Made by a program: the position numbers and the translations under genes | Virus record (IMG/VR): IMGVR_UViG_3300042350_004529 | Location: 1-26,285 of that record | Origin: a virus | Length of the DNA: 26,285 bases | Reading direction: 5' to 3' (one strand) | In this document: piece by piece, positions 3,799 to 26,285 of the stretch | Layout of the letters: each line of letters opens with the position of its first letter | Position numbering within the stretch: position 1 is the first letter of the stretch | Notes under the pieces: generated by a model | The model's database searches: none | Told to the model about the DNA's origin: nothing | What the model saw: only the letters and a program-made list of their open reading frames with translations

Positions 3799-4850
3799 GC
3801 AACCACCTCAGCGAGCAGGGTTTGCTGAGAGGCGGCGGTAGCGGCAGCCTTGCGGGTATCGCGGGCTTGGATGAACGCAATGGCGGCGGCGGCGTTTTCC
3901 TCAGGGGTTGGGCGGCGGTTGCCGAGTCGCATTGCAGGAGCGCCAGCCTTGGGGCCGTAAAGCTCCCAGTTTTTGAATTTCAGCGACTGCCAGCGTTTGC
4001 CGTCAATGCTCGCGGCAACGCCATCCTCAAGCTGCCCCCGCAGGATTTCGGTTCCACCTCGCTGGTCCTGCTGGATCTGGCGAGCCTGGCCAAGCATCCG
4101 GGTCCAGGCTTCAGGGGTCATCTGGCCAGATCGGGTTGGCCAGAAGGCGAGCAGTTCGTGCTGAACAGGCAACAGGTCTGCCGGGATGTCGTCAGCGGTT
4201 GGCCGGAAGCGTGGCTTCCGGGCTGGCTTGGTGAGGGCCATGGTCTGCGGTGGTGGTTCAGAAACGATACCGCCTGCTGGGGCGTTGGGAACCGCAGCGG
4301 CAATGGGCAACGCTTCGACCGTGATCAGCTCGCCCTGCCCCTCGCCCGCGTTCCCCCCACTGGGGGGTAAGGGGGGTTCTAAGTCTTGTTCAATTCCTCT
4401 TGTTAAATCCCTCTTGTTAGGGTCCCCCAAATGGGGGAGGGGTGGGGTCCCCCAAATGGGGGAGGGGTGGGGTCCCCTTTTTGGGGTATTCCCCTTTTGG
4501 GGGAGGGGTCCCCTTTTTAGGGGAGGGGTCTGCTCGTATCTGACGTGGAACAAAGCGGTCTGACCGGGCCTGTCAACCCGGCTGATCCAGCCGTTTTCCA
4601 CAAGCCAGCGCAGGCTTGATCTAACGTCATCCACCTTCATCCGGCACTCCAGGGCCAGCCTGGTGATGGATGGGAACGCCTGATCGTCCTGCCCTGCGTA
4701 ATGCCAGAGCCAGGCATAAACGAACAGGGTGCCCTTGCGCTCGGCGCAGGCTTCTAGCAGGGCGATTGGCACCTGAGCAAACCTTGGTCGCGTGATCCTG
4801 GGCTGAGTTAAACCGGCTACCTGATCGGCAGCTCCTATCGCTTCGGTCAT
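3795..4850 (-). CDS. Winged-helix replication-initiator-like protein (phage O type)
   Basis: The product is 351 aa from ATG 4850 (MTEAIGAADQVAGLTQPRIT). The longer frame to 4946 would run through a terminator-like hairpin, so I reject it. Residues about 25-110 form a winged helix: FAQVPIALLEACAERKGTLF, then AFPSITRLALECRMKVDDVR, SSLRWLVENGWISRV. This is the layout of phage replication protein O and DnaD-like N-domains. Residues about 107-157 are a low-complexity Pro/Gly/Lys linker encoded by palindromic DNA repeats. A C-terminal domain (LLPVQHELLAFWPTRSGQMT...) follows, and the tail is Ala-rich. It heads the minus-strand replication run, diverging from the regulator at 5080. Confidence 0.6.
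   Translation of the reverse strand: MTEAIGAADQVAGLTQPRITRPRFAQVPIALLEACAERKGTLFVYAWLWHYAGQDDQAFPSITRLALECRMKVDDVRSSLRWLVENGWISRVDRPGQTALFHVRYEQTPPLKRGPLPQKGNTPKRGPHPSPIWGTPPLPHLGDPNKRDLTRGIEQDLEPPLPPSGGNAGEGQGELITVEALPIAAAVPNAPAGGIVSEPPPQTMALTKPARKPRFRPTADDIPADLLPVQHELLAFWPTRSGQMTPEAWTRMLGQARQIQQDQRGGTEILRGQLEDGVAASIDGKRWQSLKFKNWELYGPKAGAPAMRLGNRRPTPEENAAAAIAFIQARDTRKAAATAASQQTLLAEVVA
4421..4531 (-). repeat. Palindromic iterons inside the initiator gene (candidate origin)
   Basis: Two exact tandem 25-bp units occupy 4421-4445 and 4446-4470, each centred on CCCCCAAATGGGGG and ending in GAGGGGTGG. Three diverged units follow, with cores CCCCTTTTTGGGG (about 4474-4486), CCCCTTTTGGGGG (about 4491-4503) and CCCCTTTTTAGGGG (about 4510-4523). 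A comparatively AT-rich stretch lies next to them (4379-4420). In the protein they encode only a variable Pro/Lys/Gly linker. Iterons plus an AT-rich flank in the middle of an initiator gene is the arrangement of lambda ori in gene O. Origin function is inferred. Confidence 0.55.
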
Positions 4851-6064: not shown

Positions 6065-6149
6065 GTTGCGGTTTCGCGGCTACCGTAGCCGCTGTGCTTC
6101 CCAAACGGCTTAGCCATGGGTTAAAATCAAAAAGCCACGGGGCAGCCCC
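6065..6149. promoter_or_regulatory. Operator/promoter region and 5' hairpin for the recombination operon
   Basis: GTTGCGGTTTC (6065-6075) is followed directly by a perfect 8-bp inverted repeat, GCGGCTAC-C-GTAGCCGC (6076-6092). Next come a GGCTTAG box (6107-6113) and a TAAAAT -10-like hexamer (6122-6127). A GGGG-CAG-CCCC stem-loop (6139-6149) would sit near the transcript 5' end. The leader then runs AACACCACCACCG to the ATG at 6187 with no Shine-Dalgarno. The region also contains the 5' side of the small minus-strand gene at 6055, so it may act in both directions. Confidence 0.45.
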
Positions 6150-6186: not shown

Positions 6187-6555
6187 ATGGCACACGACGA
6201 ATTTCCACCACTCGCACCAAATTCCGAAGCCGCTCTTAGGGCAGCCCATGAAACACACGTTGCCAACGTGCCTTACGACAGCCTGCATTTACGACGCTAT
6301 CTTTCCGCAGGGATTCGAGAGGCGATGAAACAGGCCTGTCCAGACAGGCAAGGCAGTTGCAAATGGGATCGACTCGGATACATTGCCGACAATCTCCACG
6401 CCCCACCACCACCCCCGCCGACGCGGAAGCAGATGGAGGATGCGCTGCAACACTTGATTGACCGGAGATCCGTATGGCGCCAGGGTGGATCGACTGATGA
6501 GGACCTGCAAACCCTACAGGCCGGCATTGCTCACTACTGCGAGGTGCAGCCATGA
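6187..6555 (+). CDS. Small phage protein, paralogue of the 1283-1618 product
   Basis: This 122-aa product is first in the plus-strand recombination operon. The core RRYLSAGIREAMKQACPDR then LGYIADNLHAPPPPPPT is shared with the left-operon protein at 1283-1618. The sequence after the proline run differs (RKQMEDALQHLIDRRSVWRQ here). Function is unknown. Presence of one copy in each arm suggests a domain used with different partners. The stop overlaps the start of the Rad52-like gene (ATGA), so it is co-translated with it. Confidence 0.6.
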   Translation: MAHDEFPPLAPNSEAALRAAHETHVANVPYDSLHLRRYLSAGIREAMKQACPDRQGSCKWDRLGYIADNLHAPPPPPPTRKQMEDALQHLIDRRSVWRQGGSTDEDLQTLQAGIAHYCEVQP

Positions 6556-7499
6556 CCGAAGCCTCGGGGCACGCACCGCTCATCCCTCAACACGGGTTTT
6601 CACCCGAACAGATCACAGCCCTTTCTGGCCCCCTCGCCCGCGCTCACGTCAAGCAGCGCAAGCAAGGCGGCAGTAGCGTTAGCTACATTGAAGGTTGGGT
6701 AGCGATTGCCGAAGCTAATCGCATCTTTGGTTTTGATTGCTGGCAACGTGAAACCATCCTGCTTAATTGTGCCAGCCAGTCAGAGCGTCTTATAGGAAGA
6801 GATCAAAAGCAAGGTTGGGGAGTCACCTACGTGGCTCGCGTTCGGATTACTGTCACAGCAGGTGATCGCCCTCCACTGATCCGAGAGGGAAGTGGCGCTG
6901 GCCACGGCATCGATGTTGACCTAGGGCAGGCGCATGAATCCGCCCTTAAGGAGGCCGAAACTGATGCCATGAAGCGGGCGCTGATGACCTTTGGGAACCC
7001 GTTTGGCCTTGCTCTATACGACAAGCAGCAACGGGAAGTAGAAGGAACCTCTGAGTCTGCTCGGAGCACCGAAAGGCCAGCATCGCAACAGGCTGCGGCA
7101 GGTTCACCAGTTTCCCGCCCATCAGCAGCAGCCCCTCCTGTTCGGCGTGGTTCTCCTGCTGGTCAGGCAGTTCCAGCCGGCCAGGCGAACACCAGGCCGC
7201 AACAGGCTGCCCAGCCGCAGCAGCAGGCCGCTAGCGGTGCCCAGCCCACTACAGCTGCCATGGCCTACCTGCGCTGCCAGCAGGCGGGGCTAACCGAAGC
7301 CGGCATGCGTGCCATGGCCACTGAGATCAGCAAGGGGGCCACGGCCGCCGTTGCCGCCCTTTCCGAGGCGACTCAGCACAAGCTGGTAACCACAGGAGTT
7401 CCCGAGGAATGGGTCCAGAGGTACAACGCTGCCGGTGCTGCCCTGACCGACGACGACCCCGATCTGCCGCGCACCTGGGATGCTCCGGCTGCCGCTTGA
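6552..7499 (+). CDS. Rad52/Rad22-family single-strand annealing protein
   Basis: The 315-aa product belongs to the Rad52/22 family of annealing recombinases, which pair complementary single strands during phage recombination. Diagnostic residues lie in 1-155: GGSSVSYIEGWVAIAEANRI, then FGFDCWQRE, VTYVARVRITV, the REGSGAGHGIDVDLGQAHES block and EAETDAMKRALMTFGNPFGL ending ALYD. Residues about 160-230 are a Pro/Ala/Gln-rich linker. A short C-terminal helical domain ends in an acidic DDDPDLPRTW segment that could contact SSB. The gene is coupled to the preceding one (ATGA) and is followed 50 bp later by ssb, the usual pairing. Confidence 0.9.
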   Translation: MTEASGHAPLIPQHGFSPEQITALSGPLARAHVKQRKQGGSSVSYIEGWVAIAEANRIFGFDCWQRETILLNCASQSERLIGRDQKQGWGVTYVARVRITVTAGDRPPLIREGSGAGHGIDVDLGQAHESALKEAETDAMKRALMTFGNPFGLALYDKQQREVEGTSESARSTERPASQQAAAGSPVSRPSAAAPPVRRGSPAGQAVPAGQANTRPQQAAQPQQQAASGAQPTTAAMAYLRCQQAGLTEAGMRAMATEISKGATAAVAALSEATQHKLVTTGVPEEWVQRYNAAGAALTDDDPDLPRTWDAPAAA

Positions 7500-10711: not shown

Positions 10712-10739
10712 ATTCTGCTGCCATTTGGCAACCGCAACA

Positions 10740-11515
10740 CGCCGGCTGAGCCGCATCGTGCGGTGCCTTGCGCCAACAAGCCAGGCCTGCTGCGCCTCGC
10801 CCCGCCATGCTCACCCGGCCTTTGTCGCCGTGCCTGCGACGACGTACACCGCCAGGCCTTCCTAGCCAGTCCTGCCGCGCCAGATCTCGCCTTGTCAGCC
10901 ACGCCTGTCCAGGCCATGCCTTTCCTTGCCTGCCGATCCCTGCCTTCCTGACCATGCCTGCCGTCCGATGCCGTGCCTCGATCGCTCCTGACCTCGCCAC
11001 GCCGTGCCTGCCAACCCCGCCGTTCGACGCCACGTCGTGCCACGCCTGCCGATCCGAGCCTGTCCTTCCGCACCTAGCGATGCCTGCAGCACCCTGCCAC
11101 ACCAGACCCAGCCATGCCCTTGTTGCCTCGCCTGCCATGCCCCGCCATAGGTGCCCACGAGGCCTTGCCCGCCGTGCCTTGCCCTAGCCCGACCACACCT
11201 AGCCAGCCGTGCCTGACCTTCCACGCTTGACCACGCCTTGCCTGCCAGAACTGGCCTGGCCGTGCCTTCCGAAGCCATGCCTGCCGTGCCTGTCCAGTCC
11301 AGTCCTCGACAAGCCCCTCGAAGCCATGCCTGCCGTGCCCTCCCGGCTTGGCCGTTCCGACCTGTCCGGGCCATGCCTGCCGCGCCAATTCTTGCGAGTA
11401 CCGACCACGCCTTCCGCACCATGCCTGCCGTGCCGATCCCGACCAACCGGGTCTTGCCGGGGCTGCGAACCCTTGCCACTCCGCACGTTGCCTAGCCAGC
11501 CGTGCCATTTCATGG
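10740..11515. repeat. Degenerate NNGCC repeat field
   Basis: About 770 bp are built from short words of the form NNGCC (ATGCC, GTGCC, TTGCC, ACGCC, CTGCC, TAGCC). The core CCATGCCTGCCGTGCC is repeated. At the right end cores near 11277, 11326, 11373 and 11421 are spaced 47-49 bp with unrelated 31-33-bp interiors. To the left the spacing becomes irregular. Several frames stay open on both strands because the words rarely create stops, so the long ORFs here are composition artefacts. The field lies between two minus-strand genes. I see no gene with credible composition across it. Confidence 0.8.
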
Positions 11516-12350: not shown

Positions 12351-12442
12351 GGTGGTAATTCGTAATGAATGGCCGCTGGCCTAAGCCGTTGCGGTTTCAA
12401 AATGGTATCGTACGTAGGTCGTTCCGAAACGATCGCCACCAC
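12351..12442. promoter_or_regulatory. Divergent regulatory region between the 12350 and 12443 genes
   Basis: A CTAAGCC box (12381-12387, read as GGCTTAG on the minus strand) abuts GTTGCGGTTTC (12388-12398). A GTATCGTACG segment lies in the middle, and GTCGTTCCGAAACGATC, an imperfect inverted repeat, precedes the plus-strand start. The GTTGCGGTTTC word is identical to 6065-6075. Both starts use ACCACC leaders instead of Shine-Dalgarno sequences. Confidence 0.45.
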
Positions 12443-13030
12443 ATGACCGCCACCACCACCCGACCCGCTGCCACCGGGCAGCCCGCCAACCTGTACGCCC
12501 TGACCTGCGACGCCTACCGCATGGAAGTCGCCATCACCGAAGCCGCCGAAGGGCTGGTCAGCGATGATCCCCAGGTGGTTGCCGCTGCCGAAGCCGAGCT
12601 GGAGGCGCTGATAGCCGCTGGCGAAGGCGCCAAGGATGCCCTACTGGCTAAGGCCGATTCCTGGTGCTGGGTGATCGACCGTCTGCGGGATCATGCCGCT
12701 TCCCGCAAAGCTCACGCCGCCCGCCTGGTGGCATTGGCCCAAGCCGATGAGCGCAAGGCTGACGCGATGTTCGACAAGCTGACCGATCGGCTCCTGTTTT
12801 TGGATCCCGCCGCCACCAAGTTCGACCTGCCTACCCACCAACTGCGCAGCACCAAGGTGGTCACCGTCGAAATCGACGACGACCTGCTGCCCGAGGATCT
12901 GCCCGCCGAGTACCAGCGCACCAAGACCACCACGATGGTGGATCGCGTGGCCCTCAAGGCTGCTCTGAAGGGGGGTGCCGTGGTGAAGGGGGCCAGCCTG
13001 CTGGAGCACCGCTCCTGGCGGCTGGGTTGA
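12443..13030 (+). CDS. Siphovirus Gp157-like protein
   Basis: The 195-aa product fits the Gp157 family found in phage early regions, often beside recombination or replication genes. It has an N-terminal helical stretch (NLYALTCDAYRMEVAITEAA), repeated Ala/Glu helices, and a central WCWVIDRLRDHAASRKAHAA matching the family's 'virxLe..A..lk.Ei.RL' pattern. The C-terminal beta-rich part has LRSTKVVTVEIDDDLLPEDL, then RVALKAALKGGAVVKGASLL. The family is long described as conferring phage resistance in Streptococcus; its mechanism is unclear. Start ATG 12443, not the longer frame, follows CGCCACCAC. It overlaps the next frame's possible upstream region and leads the operon. Confidence 0.8.
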   Translation: MTATTTRPAATGQPANLYALTCDAYRMEVAITEAAEGLVSDDPQVVAAAEAELEALIAAGEGAKDALLAKADSWCWVIDRLRDHAASRKAHAARLVALAQADERKADAMFDKLTDRLLFLDPAATKFDLPTHQLRSTKVVTVEIDDDLLPEDLPAEYQRTKTTTMVDRVALKAALKGGAVVKGASLLEHRSWRLG

Positions 13031-13041
13031 GGAGCAGGCTG

Positions 13042-14493
13042 ATGTTCAACCATGATTTCTACCCAACCCCGCCAGAGGTGGCGGCCACCATGCTCGACTG
13101 CCTCGACCTACGGGGTAAGACGATCCTGGAGCCCAGCGCCGGTAGCGGGAACCTGGTTCGCGAGTGCTTGAACCGTGGCGCTGCTGAGGTGCTGTGGTGT
13201 GAAAAAGAACCGCAACTGCGCTCAATCGTGAATGGCATTCCAGGCCATCACCTTGGCGGCTGCCTGCATGAAGACTTCCTGCAAGTCCAAGCCGCCGATG
13301 TGTCGCACATCGACATGATCTGCATGAATCCACCATTCTCGGCGGATGAGGCCCACATCCTGTACGCATGGGAGATCGCCCCGCCCGGCTGCGAGATTGT
13401 GGCCCTGTGCAACTGGAACACCTGCGAAGGCCGCTACCGCCGCTTGCAGCTGCAGCTAGCCACCCTGGTGGAGGCGTACGGTAGCAGCGAATGCCTTGGG
13501 GAGTGCTTCGCCACCGCCGAGCGCCCCACACGGGTCAGCGTCGGCATGGTGCGCCTCCGCAAGCCGGGGCAACGTGTAAGCACCGCTGATGAGTTCGATG
13601 GGTTCTTCCTCGGGCCTGACGACATCGAGGCCCAAGGCGAGGGGTTGATCCCTTACCGCCGCAGCCGCGACATCGTGAACCGCTACGTGGAGGCCTGTCG
13701 CATCTACGACGAGCAGGTGGAGGCCGGGGTGCGCCTGCGCAGCGTGCTCGACGGGTTCTTTGGTGGGGAGCTTGGCCTGCAAGTCACGGTCGAGGGGGCC
13801 CCGGTTACCCGCAACCGGTTCCGCAAGGACCTTCAGAAGGCCGCCTGGAAGCATGTGTTTGCCGAGTTCCTGCCCGCGCAGATGGCCACCAGCAATCTGC
13901 AAAAGGACATCAACGCCTTTGTGGAGGAGCAATCTAAGATCCCGTTCACCGAGCGGAACATCTACCGGCTGCTCCAGATCGTGGCCGGCACACAGGAGCA
14001 GCGGGTAGACCGTGCCGTAGAGGAGGCGATCGACAGCCTCACCAAGCACACGAAAGAAAACCGCTGGGGTGTAGAAGGCTGGGTCACCAACTCTGGCTAC
14101 ATGCTGAACCGCCGCTTCATCCGCGCCTACATGGCGGAGCTGAGCTGGAACAACCGTGGCGTCAACCTCAAGACCTACGGCAGCCAGAGCGATGAGATCC
14201 GCGATCTGATCAAGGCGCTGTGCTTCATCACGGGCCGCAGCTACGACGAGGTGGCCCAACCTGAGAAGCCTTCTGGTGATGGCATCTTCTGGCCTGGTGA
14301 GTGGTACGAATGGGGGTTCTTCCGGTTCCGCGCCTACAAGAAGGGCACCGTCCACTTTGAGTTCCTGGATGAGGAGGTGTGGGCTGCCGTGAATGCCCGC
14401 TATGCCAGGATCAAGGGGCAGGTGCTGCCGGAAGCCTTTAGGCGAAAGGCTGCCCGCAGGCCCAGTCGTCAACCGGCGGGGGTAGCGGCATGA
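13042..14493 (+). CDS. SAM-dependent DNA methyltransferase with DUF4942-like C-terminus
   Basis: The 483-aa product starts at ATG 13042 with a good GAGGAG Shine-Dalgarno 7 nt upstream. The TTG at 13027 is unlikely. Motif I LEPSAGSG lies at residues 29-36 and the catalytic NPPF at 96-99, the order and form of gamma-type N6-adenine methyltransferases. NHDFYPTPPEVA at the start matches phage enzymes of this kind. From about residue 215 (IVNRYVEACRIYDEQVEAGV) to the end the sequence follows the DUF4942 module that accompanies such phage methyltransferases. It likely modifies phage DNA against restriction. Its stop overlaps the alpha-CTD-like gene (ATGA). Confidence 0.85.
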   Translation: MFNHDFYPTPPEVAATMLDCLDLRGKTILEPSAGSGNLVRECLNRGAAEVLWCEKEPQLRSIVNGIPGHHLGGCLHEDFLQVQAADVSHIDMICMNPPFSADEAHILYAWEIAPPGCEIVALCNWNTCEGRYRRLQLQLATLVEAYGSSECLGECFATAERPTRVSVGMVRLRKPGQRVSTADEFDGFFLGPDDIEAQGEGLIPYRRSRDIVNRYVEACRIYDEQVEAGVRLRSVLDGFFGGELGLQVTVEGAPVTRNRFRKDLQKAAWKHVFAEFLPAQMATSNLQKDINAFVEEQSKIPFTERNIYRLLQIVAGTQEQRVDRAVEEAIDSLTKHTKENRWGVEGWVTNSGYMLNRRFIRAYMAELSWNNRGVNLKTYGSQSDEIRDLIKALCFITGRSYDEVAQPEKPSGDGIFWPGEWYEWGFFRFRAYKKGTVHFEFLDEEVWAAVNARYARIKGQVLPEAFRRKAARRPSRQPAGVAA

Positions 14494-14837
14494 TCAGCTG
14501 TCCCGATTGCGGCGCTTTGGGCCATGAGGTCCTTTCCCGTTTTGAACTGATTGAGGCTCGGATTGAGGCATTGGTTGCCGCCATGGTGCGGGAAAGAACC
14601 CAGCCAGCCGAAGGGCCCGCCATGGCATCGGTGCCGATCGAGCGGTTAGACCTGCGCACCGTCCGCGCCTACAACACTCTCAAGCGGGCAGGGGTGCATA
14701 CGGTGGAGCACCTGCTGAACCTGACCCCCGCGGATCTGCTGCGGATCAAGCGGTTCGGTGTGACCTCGCTGGCTGATGTGGTGGAGGCCCTGGAGCGGCT
14801 GGGGCTGGAACTGCCACGGGAGAGGGTGAGGACATGA
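14490..14837 (+). CDS. Free-standing RNA polymerase alpha-CTD-like protein
   Basis: The 115-aa product is, in residues 49-108, an RNA polymerase alpha C-terminal domain: PIERLDLRTVRAYNTLKRAG, then VHTVEHLLNLTPADLLRIKR and FGVTSLADVVEALERLGLEL. Residues equivalent to DNA-contacting R265, N268, G296 and S299 of the E. coli domain are present (R59, N62, G90, S93). The usual GKKS/GQKS loop reads GVTS, losing the lysine. The N-terminus has CPDC at residues 4-7 (possible half zinc site) and a helix, but no alpha-NTD. It could bind UP-element DNA or compete for host activators. It is coupled to the methyltransferase gene by ATGA. Confidence 0.8.
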   Translation: MISCPDCGALGHEVLSRFELIEARIEALVAAMVRERTQPAEGPAMASVPIERLDLRTVRAYNTLKRAGVHTVEHLLNLTPADLLRIKRFGVTSLADVVEALERLGLELPRERVRT

Positions 14838-15591: not shown

Positions 15592-15924
15592 ATGTCTACT
15601 CCCGATTCCCAAGTCCTTGAGATCAACGGCGTCAGGTACGTGCCTGAAACCGCCGCCGGCCCCGCTGCGCTACCTGCGGGCAATCGAGCTGTCTTCGTGA
15701 TTGATCGCGGCTTTATCTATGCAGGCGATTGCTCAGTATCTGATGGGCAGTACACATTGACCAATGCCGTAAACTTGCGGCGCTACGAATCCATTGGGTT
15801 TGAGGGTGTACTTGCGGACCCCAAAAGCACCAAAGCCACAATCGTGGCCATGCCCTATCCCGTAATTGTGCCAGTCGGGTCTGTGTTGTTTCTGATTCCC
15901 GTTCCCCAAGGGTGGGGGCTGTGA
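15592..15924 (+). CDS. DUF6948-like phage protein
   Basis: The 110-aa product is a small all-beta protein of a family I recognise from phage accessory regions. NRAVFVIDRGFIYAGDCSVS, then YTLTNAVNLRRYESIGFEGV and a C-terminal VGSVLFLIPVPQGWGL match the pattern (V-D-RG-F-G, LT-A--V--W, --G-L). Function is unknown. The start is ATG 15592 after TTTTTTACCCTCC. Its stop overlaps the GTG of the Gly-rich repeat gene (GTGA); I recall proteins of this kind being followed or fused to such repeats elsewhere. Confidence 0.6.
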   Translation: MSTPDSQVLEINGVRYVPETAAGPAALPAGNRAVFVIDRGFIYAGDCSVSDGQYTLTNAVNLRRYESIGFEGVLADPKSTKATIVAMPYPVIVPVGSVLFLIPVPQGWGL

Positions 15925-16220
15925 CGGCACCCCTTCAAGCCGTTAGGCCGATCGGCTCCGGCGACGGCGACGGCTCCGGCGACGGCTACGGCTACGGCTA
16001 CGGCTACGGCTCCGGCTCCGGCTACGGCTACAGCTACAGCTACGGCGACGGCTACGGCTACGGCTCCGGCTCCGGCTCCGGCGACGGCTACGGCTACGGC
16101 TACGGCTACGGCTCCGGCTCCGGCTCCGGCGACGGCTACGGCTACGGCTACGGCTACAGCTACGGCGACGGCTCCGGCGACGGCTCCGGCTCCATTTCAA
16201 CTGCATTCAGAAGGCGCTAG
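15921..16220 (+). CDS. Gly-Tyr/Ser/Asp dipeptide-repeat protein
   Basis: The 99-aa product starts at GTG 15921, overlapping the TGA of the DUF6948-like gene. After VTAPLQAVRPIG come about 80 residues made almost only of Gly alternating with Tyr, Ser or Asp (GYGYGYG, GSGSGSGDG, SYSYGDG). The tail is SISTAFRRR. It contains a 16-residue near-duplicate block (SGSGSGDG followed by four GY pairs). It should be disordered and could phase-separate or act as a flexible adhesive linker. The reverse strand reads as an Arg-Ser repeat, but only the plus strand has a coupled start. Confidence 0.65.
   Translation: MTAPLQAVRPIGSGDGDGSGDGYGYGYGYGSGSGYGYSYSYGDGYGYGSGSGSGDGYGYGYGYGSGSGSGDGYGYGYGYSYGDGSGDGSGSISTAFRRR
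15955..16191 (+). repeat. Six-base-period microsatellite (GGCKMC-type)
   Basis: About 237 bp consist of GGCTAC, GGCTCC and GGCGAC units with a few AGCTAC, all in frame. A 48-bp block (three GGCTCC, one GGCGAC, four GGCTAC, less exact at the edges) is present twice. Unit gain or loss keeps the reading frame. Confidence 0.85.
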
Positions 16221-16626: not shown

Positions 16627-16866
16627 ATGTCCACCCCTCTCGCCGAAGCCCTGCTCACCATCGAAGCGCACCCCCTCTGCTCCATCGCCAGTGAGCGGCA
16701 GGGTGATGATCTGGCCCCGTGGTTCTACGTCCAGAACGACGACAACGACGACTACTGCGATGTAGACACCCTGCCAGCCACTCTGGCCAGCTACGACGAG
16801 ACGCAGGCCCCTTACCGCCTCACCGTGCTTCTGCCGTTTGAGGAAGAGGGTTTCGCGTACGCCTAA
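16627..16866 (+). CDS. Small acidic hypothetical protein
   Basis: The 79-aa acidic product is MSTPLAEALLTIEAHPLCSI then ASERQGDDLAPWFYVQNDDN and YDETQAPYRLTVLLPFEEEG. It has an Asp-rich patch (NDDNDDYCDVD). No family is recognised. It starts at ATG 16627 after the conserved leader hairpin and CACCACCACC tract, not in the 16499 frame that runs through the hairpin. Its stop begins the alternative-hairpin segment at 16867. Confidence 0.55.
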   Translation: MSTPLAEALLTIEAHPLCSIASERQGDDLAPWFYVQNDDNDDYCDVDTLPATLASYDETQAPYRLTVLLPFEEEGFAYA

Positions 16867-16918
16867 TTGCTGCGCTTTCCAAACCACACTACGCAGCAGA
16901 TAAAGCCTGACTGCTGCG
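16867..16918 (+). promoter_or_regulatory. Mutually exclusive hairpins in a leader
   Basis: Three complementary arms lie in order: TTGCTGCG (16867-16874), CGCAGCAG (16892-16899) and CTGCTGCG (16911-16918). The middle arm can pair with either neighbour, 7-8 bp each way, as in attenuators. The segment ends 18 nt before ATG 16937 and is followed by CACACCACTCCACTTCCA. Confidence 0.5.
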
Positions 16919-17194: not shown

Positions 17195-17281
17195 CCCTCG
17201 GGGCATGGCCCGGTGAGTTGCCGGACTACCTGCGCTCCCTGGTGATGCCATCCACTGCTCGGGTTAAGCGGTGGAACACAT

Positions 17282-17305
17282 GGCCTCTCACCTGAATCGG
17301 GACCC
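17282..17305 (+). repeat. 24-bp direct repeat, copy 1
   Basis: GGCCTCTCACCTGAATCGGG plus ACCC. It is identical to 18019-18042 and lies before the pentapeptide-repeat gene. In one frame both copies read ASHLNRDP. Confidence 0.9.
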
Positions 17306-17402
17306 GTCGAGGTCTGTCGTTGATTCCAGGGTTCATGCCCCAAGAGGGCGGCAGCAAGCGCACGCCTGTAAGACCCCCTTCCCGCCACCTATTCAAAATC
17401 CC

Positions 17403-18005
17403 GTGACTGAATCATCATCTTCCAGCCCGCCCGAAATCCTAGCCAACTTCAGCGGGGCCAACCTCAGCAAGCGAGACCTCAGCTGGGCCGACCTCAGTGG
17501 GGCCAACTTCAGCGGGGCCAACCTCAGCAAGCGAGACCTCAGCGGGGCCAACCTCAGCGAGGCCAACCTCAGCAAGGCCAACCTCAGCAAGGCCAACCTC
17601 AGCTGGGCCAACCTCAGCGAGGCCAACCTCAGCGAGGCCGACCTCAGCGGGGCCAACCTCAGCGAGGCCAACCTCAGCTGGGCCAACCTCAGCAAGGCCG
17701 ACCTCAGCGAGGCTCGTGGCCTCGTCATTGCAGCCGACTCGCTGCAGCGCCTCAAAGCCGCTGCAGCTGCTGCGCTTCTGCCCGGCGCTTTGGAAATGAA
17801 CAGCTGCCCCACCTCCTATTGCCTGAGCGGGTGGCTGATTTCCCAGGCCGGCGAAGCTGGCAGGTTGCTGGAGGTGGCGGTCGGCCCGGAAATCGCCGGC
17901 CTAATGCTCGGAGGCATCGAGGCCCACAGCCACTTCTACGACGACAACGAGGCCGCTACCAAGTGGCTGCAGTCGGTTCTGGCGCGGCCTGAGGTGACCC
18001 AATGA
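17403..18005 (+). CDS. Pentapeptide-repeat protein with conserved C-terminal domain
   Basis: From GTG 17403 the product is 200 aa (ATG 17271 or 17280 in the same frame are alternatives). Residues about 16-105 are 18 consecutive pentapeptides of A(N/D)LSx type (NFSGA NLSKR DLSWA and so on), predicted to form a right-handed quadrilateral beta helix. The remaining ~95 residues contain a domain often attached to phage pentapeptide proteins: CPTSYCLSGWLISQAGEAGR, then PEIAGLMLGGIEAHSHFYDD and a final helix. Some pentapeptide proteins mimic DNA and bind gyrase, but nothing here proves that. The uniform codon pattern (AACCTCAGC units) implies recent tandem growth. Confidence 0.8.
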   Translation: MTESSSSSPPEILANFSGANLSKRDLSWADLSGANFSGANLSKRDLSGANLSEANLSKANLSKANLSWANLSEANLSEADLSGANLSEANLSWANLSKADLSEARGLVIAADSLQRLKAAAAAALLPGALEMNSCPTSYCLSGWLISQAGEAGRLLEVAVGPEIAGLMLGGIEAHSHFYDDNEAATKWLQSVLARPEVTQ

Positions 18006-22787: not shown

Positions 22788-22802
22788 CCGTCGCGTGGAT
22801 AA

Positions 22803-22839
22803 CCGTTGCCGTTCCCAAACGGCAATTATGGCTTAGACT
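22803..22839 (+). promoter_or_regulatory. Operator/promoter before the small-terminase-like gene
   Basis: TTGCCGTT-CCCA-AACGGCAA (22806-22825) is an 8-bp inverted repeat, followed by ATTATGGCTTAGACT with the GGCTTAG box at 22830-22836. The ATG at 22840 comes only 3 nt after that box, so the transcript would be nearly leaderless. Confidence 0.45.
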
Positions 22840-23609: not shown

Positions 23610-23647
23610 GCACCGCCCCGCATTTTGGCAACCTAGTTTCCCCATGA
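23606..23647 (+). CDS. 13-residue coupling mini-ORF
   Basis: MSTAPHFGNLVSP starts inside the previous stop (ATGA), and its own stop overlaps the haloperoxidase ATG (CCATGA). It exactly bridges the 34-nt gap, so ribosomes could reach the next start by re-initiation. Confidence 0.35.
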   Translation: MSTAPHFGNLVSP

Positions 23648-25281
23648 CTAATCTAATCGCTTTCAGTGTGCTCCGCGCCCCGTCCATTAAGGCCAATGGT
23701 GGCGCTGGCCTTGCCATGCTGCAGTTCAGCAACGGTCGGACAGAAGTTACTAAAACGGTCTCGCTGTATCTATCCGCCGATCGTCGCTTCGATAGCAATG
23801 ACACCCTGCTAACCCGTCAAAGCGTGCTCGGCGACAAGAGGTCACTGGCTTTCTCTACCGCCAAGCACGCTGTAGCAGATGGCTCCTACCACGTGATCGC
23901 CCGCGTTGAATTCAATGGCAACGTGGAGCAAAGCGTGCAGCTGGTCAATGGTCGCGGCAGCGATGGGATCCTCACCTGGATCAGCTGTGCCCTCAACGCA
24001 ATCCAATCGGCCGGCAGCAATGGCAAGCCCGGGGTGCCACCCACCACCGGCACCCGGCTGATGGCCATGCTCTCCACCGCCATGCTCGATGTGGTGGCCG
24101 CCTTTGGCGACAAGGTGAACCCCTACCGCTTCGATCTCACGGCCCCCAGCGGCGCCAGCCGCGAGGCTGCGGTCGTGGGGGCCGCCCAGCGGATTTTGGC
24201 CAAGGCGTTGCCTGGGGAGTCCAGCCTGATCCGGGACCAGTTGGCCAAATCCCTGGCGGAGCTCAAGGGCTCGAAGCAGGGCATCCAGGCGGGCCTGGCC
24301 TTCGGGGCAGGCATAGCGGAGCGGGTGCGTGCCTCCCGGGCCAGCGATGGCCATGACAACAACACCCCCTACACCCCACCCGCCGATGGATTGCCGGGTT
24401 ACGTGTGGATGCCGGCCACCTCAGGTCCCACCGCCGGCGTGGCCCTCGGCGCCAACTGGGGATCGGTGACCCCCTGGGTGATCAGCGGCCCCGATGCCTA
24501 CCGATCCGACGGTCTCCAGTGCCGGCCGGATGTCGACCTCAACCTCTACGCGACCCAGCTCAACGAGGTGCGCCAGTTGGGTGGTCTGGCCAGCACGGCG
24601 GTGACCTCGATCCAGCGCACCGCGGACCAGACCCAGATCGCCTATTTCTGGGCCTACGACAGGCCCGACACCTTCCGCCCCTATGGCCAACTGATCGACA
24701 TCGCCATGGATGTGGCGGCCCAAAAGAACAGCACCCTCGAAACCAACGCAAGACTGATCGCCAGCCTGAGCATCGCCATGGCGGACGCGGTGATCTGTGC
24801 CTGGCAGGAGAAATACAGCAATGTGCAGCCCCGCCCCGCCGATCTGATCACCGGCGCCTTCTCCGACACTGATGGGGTGGCCTCCACCGTGCGCGATAGC
24901 CAATGGCAGTCGCTGCTCTCCTCAATCAATGGCGTTCAGTCTCCGCCCTTTCCCGATTTCCTCTCGGGTCATTCGGTGATGGGCGGTGCTTTCGCCAGCG
25001 TGATGACCCAGTTCTTCGGTGACAACGTGGTGTTCTCGGCCCGCTCGGTCGAACTGCCGGGCGTGAAGCGTTCCTTTGACGGCCGGATCGCTCCCGGCAG
25101 TCTGGGGGATCTGAGCACTGTGGCCCTAAGGCCCAACAGCTTCTATGAGGCCGGGCTGGAAGATGCGGTGAGCCGTGTCTACGGAGGTGTTCACATCCGC
25201 GAGGCCTGTCTTGATTCCTTCAACGTGGGCGTCAAGGTGGGCGATGTCGTGGCCCGCAGCTTTCTGGGGCCGGTGGGATGA
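23644..25281 (+). CDS. CARDB-like domain fused to vanadium-dependent haloperoxidase (PAP2)
   Basis: The 545-aa product has two parts. Residues 1-100 resemble a CARDB/Ig-type beta sandwich (VSLYLSADRRFDSNDTLL, SYHVIARVEF). Residues 130-545 are a vanadium haloperoxidase/PAP2 enzyme. The vanadate/phosphate-binding motifs are complete: K390 and R397-P398 (EKYSNVQPRP), S441-G442-H443 (DFLSGHSVMGGAF), and S510-R511...H517 (SRVYGGVH). VNPYRFDLTAPSGASREA is the typical entry segment of the secreted bacterial family. No signal peptide or transmembrane helix is visible. Both flanks are ATGA junctions with phage-type genes. Halide oxidation versus phosphatase activity cannot be told from motifs alone. 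Confidence 0.85.
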   Translation: MTNLIAFSVLRAPSIKANGGAGLAMLQFSNGRTEVTKTVSLYLSADRRFDSNDTLLTRQSVLGDKRSLAFSTAKHAVADGSYHVIARVEFNGNVEQSVQLVNGRGSDGILTWISCALNAIQSAGSNGKPGVPPTTGTRLMAMLSTAMLDVVAAFGDKVNPYRFDLTAPSGASREAAVVGAAQRILAKALPGESSLIRDQLAKSLAELKGSKQGIQAGLAFGAGIAERVRASRASDGHDNNTPYTPPADGLPGYVWMPATSGPTAGVALGANWGSVTPWVISGPDAYRSDGLQCRPDVDLNLYATQLNEVRQLGGLASTAVTSIQRTADQTQIAYFWAYDRPDTFRPYGQLIDIAMDVAAQKNSTLETNARLIASLSIAMADAVICAWQEKYSNVQPRPADLITGAFSDTDGVASTVRDSQWQSLLSSINGVQSPPFPDFLSGHSVMGGAFASVMTQFFGDNVVFSARSVELPGVKRSFDGRIAPGSLGDLSTVALRPNSFYEAGLEDAVSRVYGGVHIREACLDSFNVGVKVGDVVARSFLGPVG

Positions 25282-26285
25282 CCAGCACCCTCCACCTTGG
25301 CGACTGCCTGGAGGTGCTGCGCACCATGCCGGACTGCAGCGTGGACGCGGTGGTGACGGATCCGCCGTACGGCCTGGCCTTCATGGGCAAACGGTGGGAT
25401 TACGACGTGCCCAGCGTGGCGATCTGGGCCGAGTGCCTGCGGGTGCTTAAGCCTGGCGGGCACCTGCTGGCCTTCGCCGGCACGCGCACGCAGCATCGGA
25501 TGGCGGTGCGGATCGAGGACGCAGGGTTTGAGATCCGCGACATGATCGCTTGGGTCTACGGGTCGGGGTTTCCGAAGTCGCTGGATGTGAGCAAGGCGAT
25601 TGATAAGGCGGCGGGGGCTGAGCGGGAGGTGGTGGGGCAACACCGCGCCACGGCTCCAGGTTGCAACATGCGGGTCAGTATGACTGGCTGCGATTACGAC
25701 AAGGCCGGCTCCATCACCGCCCCCGCCACCCCCGAGGCCCAGCAGTGGGCCGGCTGGGGCACGGCGTTGAAACCGTCCTTTGAAAGCGTGACATGGGCCA
25801 CAAAGCCCGTAGACACTATGGGTTACTGCGCTATAATTTTAGAGAACCTAACAGAACTAGAGGCGCAGTGCTTACAAAATGCGAATGCTGCGGCAAGCAG
25901 TTCAAGACCTACCCAAGCAGGCTCGCCAGAGGCGAAGATCGGTTTTGCTCAAGAGCCTGCAGCAACCCAGCACGGGGGAGAGCAGGAGAGAAAAACGGCA
26001 ACTGGGGCGGCGGGCGCTACCAGCTCTCCAGTGGATACATCGGCGTCAACATTGGCGGCGGCAAGTATCGCTTGGAGCATTGCCTCGTCATGGAGGCACA
26101 CCTTGGAAGGCGTCTACGCAAGGGGGAGAACGTCCACCACCGAAACGGAATCAAAAACGACAACCGACTGGAAAACCTTGAGCTGCTGTCTATCGCAGAT
26201 CACGCCCGAGAGCATCATCCAGGCGTGCAGCCTTCCCGGTGGGTTCAGTGCCAATGCTTCCACTGCGGCGCAGATCTTCAACGCC
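25278..26285 (+). CDS. DNA methyltransferase, apparently interrupted by an HNH gene (partial)
   Basis: From ATG 25278 (ATGA overlap) residues 1-177 are a beta-type N4/N6 DNA methyltransferase: MTSTLHLGDCLEVLRTMPDC, catalytic DPPYG at 28-32, LRVLKPGGHLLAFAGTRTQH, WVYGSGFPKS and WGTALKPSFESVTWATKP. The next expected segment and the AdoMet-binding FxGxG motif do not follow. From about 25806 the DNA instead carries a promoter and an HNH endonuclease gene in another frame. The methyltransferase frame nevertheless has no stop to the window end (336 codons). It gives Ser/Thr/Ala-rich sequence there, so it is unclear whether the open extension is translated. Confidence 0.75.
   Translation, partial: MTSTLHLGDCLEVLRTMPDCSVDAVVTDPPYGLAFMGKRWDYDVPSVAIWAECLRVLKPGGHLLAFAGTRTQHRMAVRIEDAGFEIRDMIAWVYGSGFPKSLDVSKAIDKAAGAEREVVGQHRATAPGCNMRVSMTGCDYDKAGSITAPATPEAQQWAGWGTALKPSFESVTWATKPVDTMGYCAIILENLTELEAQCLQNANAAASSSRPTQAGSPEAKIGFAQEPAATQHGGEQERKTATGAAGATSSPVDTSASTLAAASIAWSIASSWRHTLEGVYARGRTSTTETESKTTTDWKTLSCCLSQITPESIIQACSLPGGFSANASTAAQIFNA
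25810..25837 (+). promoter_or_regulatory. Near-consensus sigma-70 promoter for the HNH gene
   Basis: TAGACA (25810-25815, 5 of 6 to TTGACA) is followed by a 16-bp spacer and a perfect TATAAT (25832-25837). Transcription would begin near 25844, about 24 nt before GTG 25868. It is the best -35/-10 pair in the window and lies at the point where the methyltransferase sequence breaks off. Confidence 0.7.
25868..26285 (+). CDS. HNH homing-type endonuclease (partial)
   Basis: From GTG 25868 the first 139 residues are visible before the window ends. The N-terminus LTKCECCGKQFKTYPSRLA and RFCSRACSN (C5, C8, C27, C31) is a zinc knuckle. SSGYIGVNIGGGKYRLEHCL leads into the HNH nuclease core VHHRNGIKNDNRLENLELLS, with V89-H90-H91, N99 and N103 conserved. 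A second CxC/CxxC cluster begins near the window edge (VQCQCFHCG). It matches phage free-standing or intron-associated HNH enzymes that spread by cutting an uninterrupted allele. It overlaps the methyltransferase frame (+2 relative). Confidence 0.8.
   Translation, partial: MLTKCECCGKQFKTYPSRLARGEDRFCSRACSNPARGRAGEKNGNWGGGRYQLSSGYIGVNIGGGKYRLEHCLVMEAHLGRRLRKGENVHHRNGIKNDNRLENLELLSIADHAREHHPGVQPSRWVQCQCFHCGADLQR

Follow-up and report, generated by a model that had tools for sequence, protein, structure and literature searches.

On bacterial RNA polymerase, activators and upstream DNA dock mainly at the C-terminal domain of the alpha subunit (alpha-CTD), and the N-terminal domain (alpha-NTD) of RpoA serves dimerization and binding of beta and beta'. 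What, then, could an alpha-CTD without an alpha-NTD do for a phage? This question is raised by an ORF in the IMG/VR virus record IMGVR_UViG_3300042350_004529 (hereafter the window, the whole 26,285-nucleotide stretch of DNA analyzed here). The ORF starts with ATG and encodes a protein of 115 amino acids with the following features:

14490–14837, + strand: alpha-CTD protein, a short form with the core of a zinc ribbon deleted; the homologue L002 has the same form
14490–14534, + strand: residues 1–15, MISCPDCGALGHEVL, remnant of the first half of an NrdR-type zinc ribbon, from alignments with L003 and L005
14523–14600, + strand: residues 12–37, predicted long helix (AlphaFold model, pLDDT only 48–70)
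14616–14819, + strand: residues 43–110, alpha-CTD domain (Pfam, model pLDDT 84–89, structural matches)

A first-pass annotation had read this ORF as a complete, free-standing alpha-CTD, and both parts of that reading held up. The Pfam family RNA_pol_A_CTD (PF03118) matched residues 44–102 at 57.8 bits (E 9e-16), above its cut-off of 23.8 bits. The NCBIfam rpoA models aligned to the protein through their C-terminal part only, and the alpha-NTD expected of an RpoA was absent. An AlphaFold model of the protein, built from 21 viral sequences, superimposed on several solved alpha-CTDs with Z-scores of 11–12.5 at 1.0–1.3 Å. The annotation had named a generic helix-hairpin-helix fold as the alternative, but the top unrelated structural matches, helix-hairpin-helix chains of Dmc1, reached Z-scores of 8.5–8.8. 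By sequence, the closest solved structures were the cyanobacterial RpoA CTDs 8syi and 8gzg, and the domain was 56% identical to that of Synechococcus 7942 RpoA over 62 residues (1.0 Å). A chance ORF is excluded, as other contigs have homologues at the same locus and dN is lower than dS. Together these results confirmed that the product of 14490–14837 carries a genuine RNA polymerase alpha-CTD. The helix in front of it is possibly a dimerizing coil.

We aligned the domain to E. coli alpha-CTD residues. R59, N62, G90 and S93 of the window protein correspond to R265, N268, G296 and S299, all kept as the annotation had stated. It had also noted that the DNA-contacting lysine of the GKKS loop is replaced; in the window loop, GVTS, K298 is indeed lost, as is K297, and C269 has become T63. 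The DNA contacts of alpha-CTD, which we take to be R265, N268, C269, G296, K298 and S299 (with the numbering of determinants other than R265 and N268 assumed), are thus incomplete in the window protein, which lacks C269 and K298. Position 259, which under the same assumption would be a sigma contact, is R or Q in the phage family and acidic in two cyanobacterial sequences. The same changes run through the whole family: every member has one residue added before the R265 equivalent, K298 is replaced by T or A, and C269 is replaced by T or L. For R265 and N268, whose numbering follows PMC11434276, the equivalents are kept in every member and in seven of nine, respectively. Among 12 other distinct viral alpha-CTDs, C269 is present in all and K or R occupies position 298 in 11. 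DNA contact by the alpha-CTD therefore looks weakened across the family while the fold is kept, and the changed DNA contacts and position 259 together could mean weaker polymerase-type contacts overall. The suggestion that the phage protein blocks UP elements by binding DNA is correspondingly weakened.

These residues also bear on whether the domain is just an accessory DNA-binding domain that makes no polymerase contact, as has been proposed for the helical domain resembling alpha-CTD in BREX PglW, an example of such a domain reused outside polymerase (PMC12839542). The retention of R265, and mostly of N268, is in keeping with such a role; the family-wide loss of K298 and C269, which other phage alpha-CTDs nearly always keep, speaks against it, and we consider it improbable.

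The N-terminal CPDC of the window protein had been described as a motif of its own, and a free motif or zinc hook was a candidate that we dropped once relatives of the protein had been aligned. At seven loci (L003, L004, L005, L006/L010, L009, L011 and L048) the homologues are long forms of 163–179 amino acids that consist of a full NrdR-type zinc ribbon, a helix and an alpha-CTD; the N-terminus of L003, with its four-cysteine ribbon, reads MIPCPECGAIGHRVIESRYQPKAQAKRRRCVCKACGFRFTTQEK. Two further contigs, L013 and L014, end inside the gene. DNA and protein alignments with the full-ribbon L003 and L005 placed an in-frame 147-nt deletion directly after codon 15 of the window gene, between 14534 and 14535. 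Because these 147 nt are absent relative to the full-ribbon relatives, CPDC represents the first half of a zinc ribbon, spared by the deletion. L002, found in the viral contig search and 91% identical to the window protein, is also a short form, with an identical gap in the DNA alignment. The CPDC–alpha-CTD architecture sought in other phages thus recurs in L002, and the seven other loci carry the full ribbon instead.

Pfam detected Zn_ribbon_NrdR (PF22811) in all four long forms scanned, at 38–40 bits (cut-off 27.2); the window protein, with a single CxxC, lacks the four-cysteine ribbon of this family. In NrdR the ribbon is followed by an ATP-cone, whereas the phage family has an alpha-CTD in that place. 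Neither the window protein nor the long forms had an ATP-cone match, and the NrdR model aligned at residues 3–45 only; the long forms are therefore not NrdR. NrdR structures ranked first when a low-confidence AlphaFold model of a long form was searched with Foldseek, and this model was too poor for structural matching of its alpha-CTD. Since an insertion is unlikely to have built a complete NrdR ribbon, we infer from the alignments that the long form is ancestral.

For Streptomyces coelicolor NrdR, backbone contacts to DNA are reported for R12, R26–29 and R37, and specificity depends on D15 and R17 (PMC9110341). With numbering placed by hand, the corresponding residues of the long forms are R13, R27–R29 followed by C30, R or K38, E16 and R18; R13, E16, R18 and R27–R29 are invariant in six long forms, and position 38 is among those that vary. 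By this comparison the DNA-contact residues of NrdR are nearly all kept, and the long form may well bind DNA sequence-specifically. We searched the DNA for patterns like the NrdR box or the Ogr site; no clear match emerged, and the binding site of the ribbon was not found.

Is the ribbon-less protein of the window still functional? Its ribbon core is gone, half a ribbon with CPDC alone cannot make a four-cysteine zinc site, and neither the window nor the genome of L002 (G001) encodes a second NrdR-type ribbon, all as expected if the short form were a functionless, decaying remnant of a ribbon–alpha-CTD regulator. Substitution counting points the other way. Among the window protein, L002, L003, L004 and L005, dN/dS was 0.06–0.31; it was higher against remoter members (0.4–0.96, on only 62 codons). 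The alpha-CTDs of the short-form pair differ by nine synonymous and four non-synonymous changes, a dN/dS of about 0.17. By these counts the alpha-CTD of the short forms is under purifying selection after ribbon loss, and with the same deletion and an intact frame in two diverged phages we regard decay as very improbable.

The surroundings of the gene are those of a phage operon with a cyanobacterial link, as the first-pass annotation had proposed. The gene upstream is the following:

13027–14493, + strand: DNA methyltransferase-like gene with an NPPF motif and a DUF4942 C-terminal domain

Its stop codon overlaps the ATG of the alpha-CTD gene (ATGA), an arrangement that L002 and L003 share, that the coordinates of L004 and L005 also indicate, and that is absent in L010; the overlap suggests that the two genes may be translationally coupled. 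The window is collinear with three contigs in which the position of the alpha-CTD gene is kept: G001 (63.8 kb), G002 (54.6 kb), which has a different methyltransferase-like gene in place of that of the window, and G006 (62.2 kb). At the DNA level, no named phage was close. For the terminase and portal proteins of G002, the closest counterparts are those of Synechococcus and Prochlorococcus phages, G002 has tail genes including one for a tape measure protein, and the window genome is cyanosiphovirus-like. In a tree of 26 sequences the phage family was monophyletic (97/96) and grouped with cyanobacterial RpoA (94/85), apart from other phage alpha-CTDs; based on about 65 columns and two cyanobacterial sequences only, the tree is moderate evidence for this grouping. 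Sequence comparison thus suggests a cyanobacterial host as the most likely source of the captured alpha-CTD. With cyanobacterial RpoA CTDs (PF03118; 8syi, 8gzg, 9dvt) the family shares the fold, R265 and usually N268; it differs in being phage-borne, in lacking the alpha-NTD, in its one inserted residue and in the replacement of K298 and C269.

Several other parts of the window drew our attention. A low-complexity ORF with glycine, tyrosine, serine and aspartate repeats lies just downstream of the alpha-CTD gene (15912–16220), and a recombination cluster comprises a Rad52/22-family annealing protein (6552–7499), a Holliday junction resolvase and a single-strand binding protein. At 17271–18005 is a 244-aa pentapeptide-repeat protein of which just a 40-residue stretch is matched in the collinear phages. 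From about 23610 onward the window departs from the phage group, and in the place that the terminase large subunit takes in the others, 23644–26285 holds a protein of 545 aa that weakly resembles PAP2/vanadium-haloperoxidase; this divergence may be an insertion, a prophage edge or an assembly joint.

Between terminase and portal, the collinear genomes encode a sigma-like protein of 304 amino acids, which is not part of the window record (G002 and G006 are numbered along the strand that has the alpha-CTD gene on +):

G001, 26471–27385: sigma-like protein
G002, 26901–27815: sigma-like protein
G006, 37921–38835: sigma-like protein

It matched PHROG sigma-factor families at 54 bits and aligned weakly with a sigma factor of solved structure (8x6g, E 4e-4). 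Its gene follows the terminase gene, a position that annotated sigma genes also have in S-CBS2 and S-CRES1. Pfam detected no family in the protein, region 4 included.

We also looked for regulatory DNA. A scan for promoters and terminators around the alpha-CTD gene gave no excess over shuffles, and Rfam had no match in the window. After an exploratory scan for dyads that tried many half-sites and many spacings, we built a matrix from eight hand-picked G001 sites; it describes a conserved, mostly intergenic motif found at matching places in the window, G001, G002 and G006:

6087–6109, 12384–12406, 16865–16887 and 22801–22823, + strand: window copies of the motif TA(A)GCCGTTGCGSTTCCCAAACGGC
10720–10742 and 4280–4302, – strand: further window copies of this motif

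The copy at 12384–12406 lies upstream of the cluster of Gp157, methyltransferase and alpha-CTD genes. At 12 bits the matrix had 18 matches in G002 against 0–2 in shuffles, 14 in G006 against 0–3 and 10 in the window against 1–3, counts that are descriptive and not a test, as the matrix was post hoc and the genomes are orthologous. A –10-like TAnnnT hexamer lies 11–12 nt past the motif in two site groups, and 10 nt past it in the group ahead of the terminase small-subunit gene, so that the dyad covers the –35 position; the remaining site groups have no such hexamer at that spacing. The short-form phages (window and G001) still carry the motif, which means that it is not just the ribbon's site. 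One possibility is that phage-owned promoter recognition is split between the sigma-like protein, with no detected region 4, and a ribbon-tethered alpha-CTD, that the dyad replaces the –35 element and that the window short form acts through the phage sigma, not through DNA. We think this unlikely.

Other phages offer partial parallels. P2 Ogr binds the alpha subunit of host polymerase (PMC7552054), and Ogr and P4 Delta (PF04606) are, like the long forms, small phage zinc-finger proteins linked to that subunit; Ogr contacts the alpha-CTD of the host, whereas the present family carries its own. Ogr_Delta stayed below its cut-off of 26.3 in all scanned long forms (best 22.6 bits, L004) and was absent from the window protein. 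Bacillus phage Goe8 encodes a 210-aa protein, QDP42789.1, recorded as RNA polymerase subunit alpha, that has a C-terminal alpha-CTD and, like the window protein, no alpha-NTD family match; unlike our family, it has an N-terminal part of no assigned kind and no zinc ribbon, keeps C269 and has R at 298. The Goe8 gene occurs at both ends of the 161583-base record (L049 and L050), presumably in a terminal repeat. Viral contigs also encode fusions of sigma region 4 to alpha-CTD (L051, L058, L059, L060, L061, L064 and L065). Like the long forms, these join an alpha-CTD to a DNA-binding module, but the module is sigma region 4, some have a Cro-type HTH in front, and the DNA contacts of the alpha-CTD are kept; here viral proteins use alpha-CTDs in another, independent way. 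Sigma region 4 was absent from the window protein and the scanned long forms. A free-standing alpha-CTD in a phage is thus not unique. Of two other GenBank phage matches that we examined, one was a full-length RpoA and the other a genuine NrdR, and most of the rest came from unannotated records resembling bacterial contigs. Plasmid matches were mostly annotated rpoA, and both of those checked were full-length rpoA genes. In cellular genomes, a search for the whole fusion with two short peptide patterns returned only NrdR genes, which does not imply absence. We found no report of a zinc-ribbon–alpha-CTD fusion in the open-access literature; the parts of a jumbo-phage survey that we consulted treat phage zinc ribbons and sigma factors and contain no mention of an alpha-CTD fusion (PMC7824862).

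The explanation that we favor, with about even confidence, is that the proteins are a family of cyanophage transcription factors that use a captured host RpoA alpha-CTD as a protein-contact effector. It draws on the profile and fold matches, the grouping with RpoA, the full ribbons of relatives, the deletion, selection, the conserved locus and the sigma-like protein of the group, as well as on the precedent of Ogr (PMC7552054) and the other phage fusions of alpha-CTD to DNA-binding modules. In the long form, the NrdR-type ribbon would bind DNA and the helix would probably dimerize; the alpha-CTD would offer a polymerase-like surface beside a promoter and favor phage promoters by contacting sigma or an activator bound to DNA. 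Such a protein would be a covalent counterpart of the contact between Ogr and the host alpha subunit. The short form of the window, its ribbon deleted, would act through alpha-CTD and helix only, most likely by protein contacts (binding a partner or competing with host alpha-CTD); the persistence of ribbon-less forms argues that DNA tethering is not indispensable. Here we infer the DNA binding by the ribbon, the dimerization, the contacts with polymerase, sigma or activator and the direction of the effect. That the mechanism is DNA-tethered contact in the long form and protein contact or decoy in the short form seems to us about as likely to be right as wrong.

As a decoy, a free alpha-CTD would bind host activators (or sigma region 4) that depend on the polymerase alpha-CTD and lower activator-dependent host transcription. 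In favor of this, the window copy is ribbon-less, with weakened DNA contacts and a fold conserved under purifying selection; it is 56% identical to the Synechococcus alpha-CTD, which binds RpaA in 9dvt, and phages are known to put the alpha-CTD out of action, Rac-triggered cleavage being one case (PMC7552054). Most relatives, however, keep a DNA-binding ribbon that a decoy would not need, and the contact surfaces have diverged from those of host alpha-CTD. We therefore hold the decoy as a tentative and rather doubtful account of the family, and for the window copy as plausible as a residual activator role.

If the transcription-factor explanation is true, the family would represent a route of transcription takeover for which we found no report in the open-access literature. 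Synthetic alpha-CTD fusions serve in bacterial two-hybrid assays, and a captured host alpha-CTD joined to a sequence-specific ribbon would be their natural counterpart. With its ribbon-bearing and ribbon-less members, the family contains a natural deletion pair, in which DNA tethering and alpha-CTD contact are experimentally separable.
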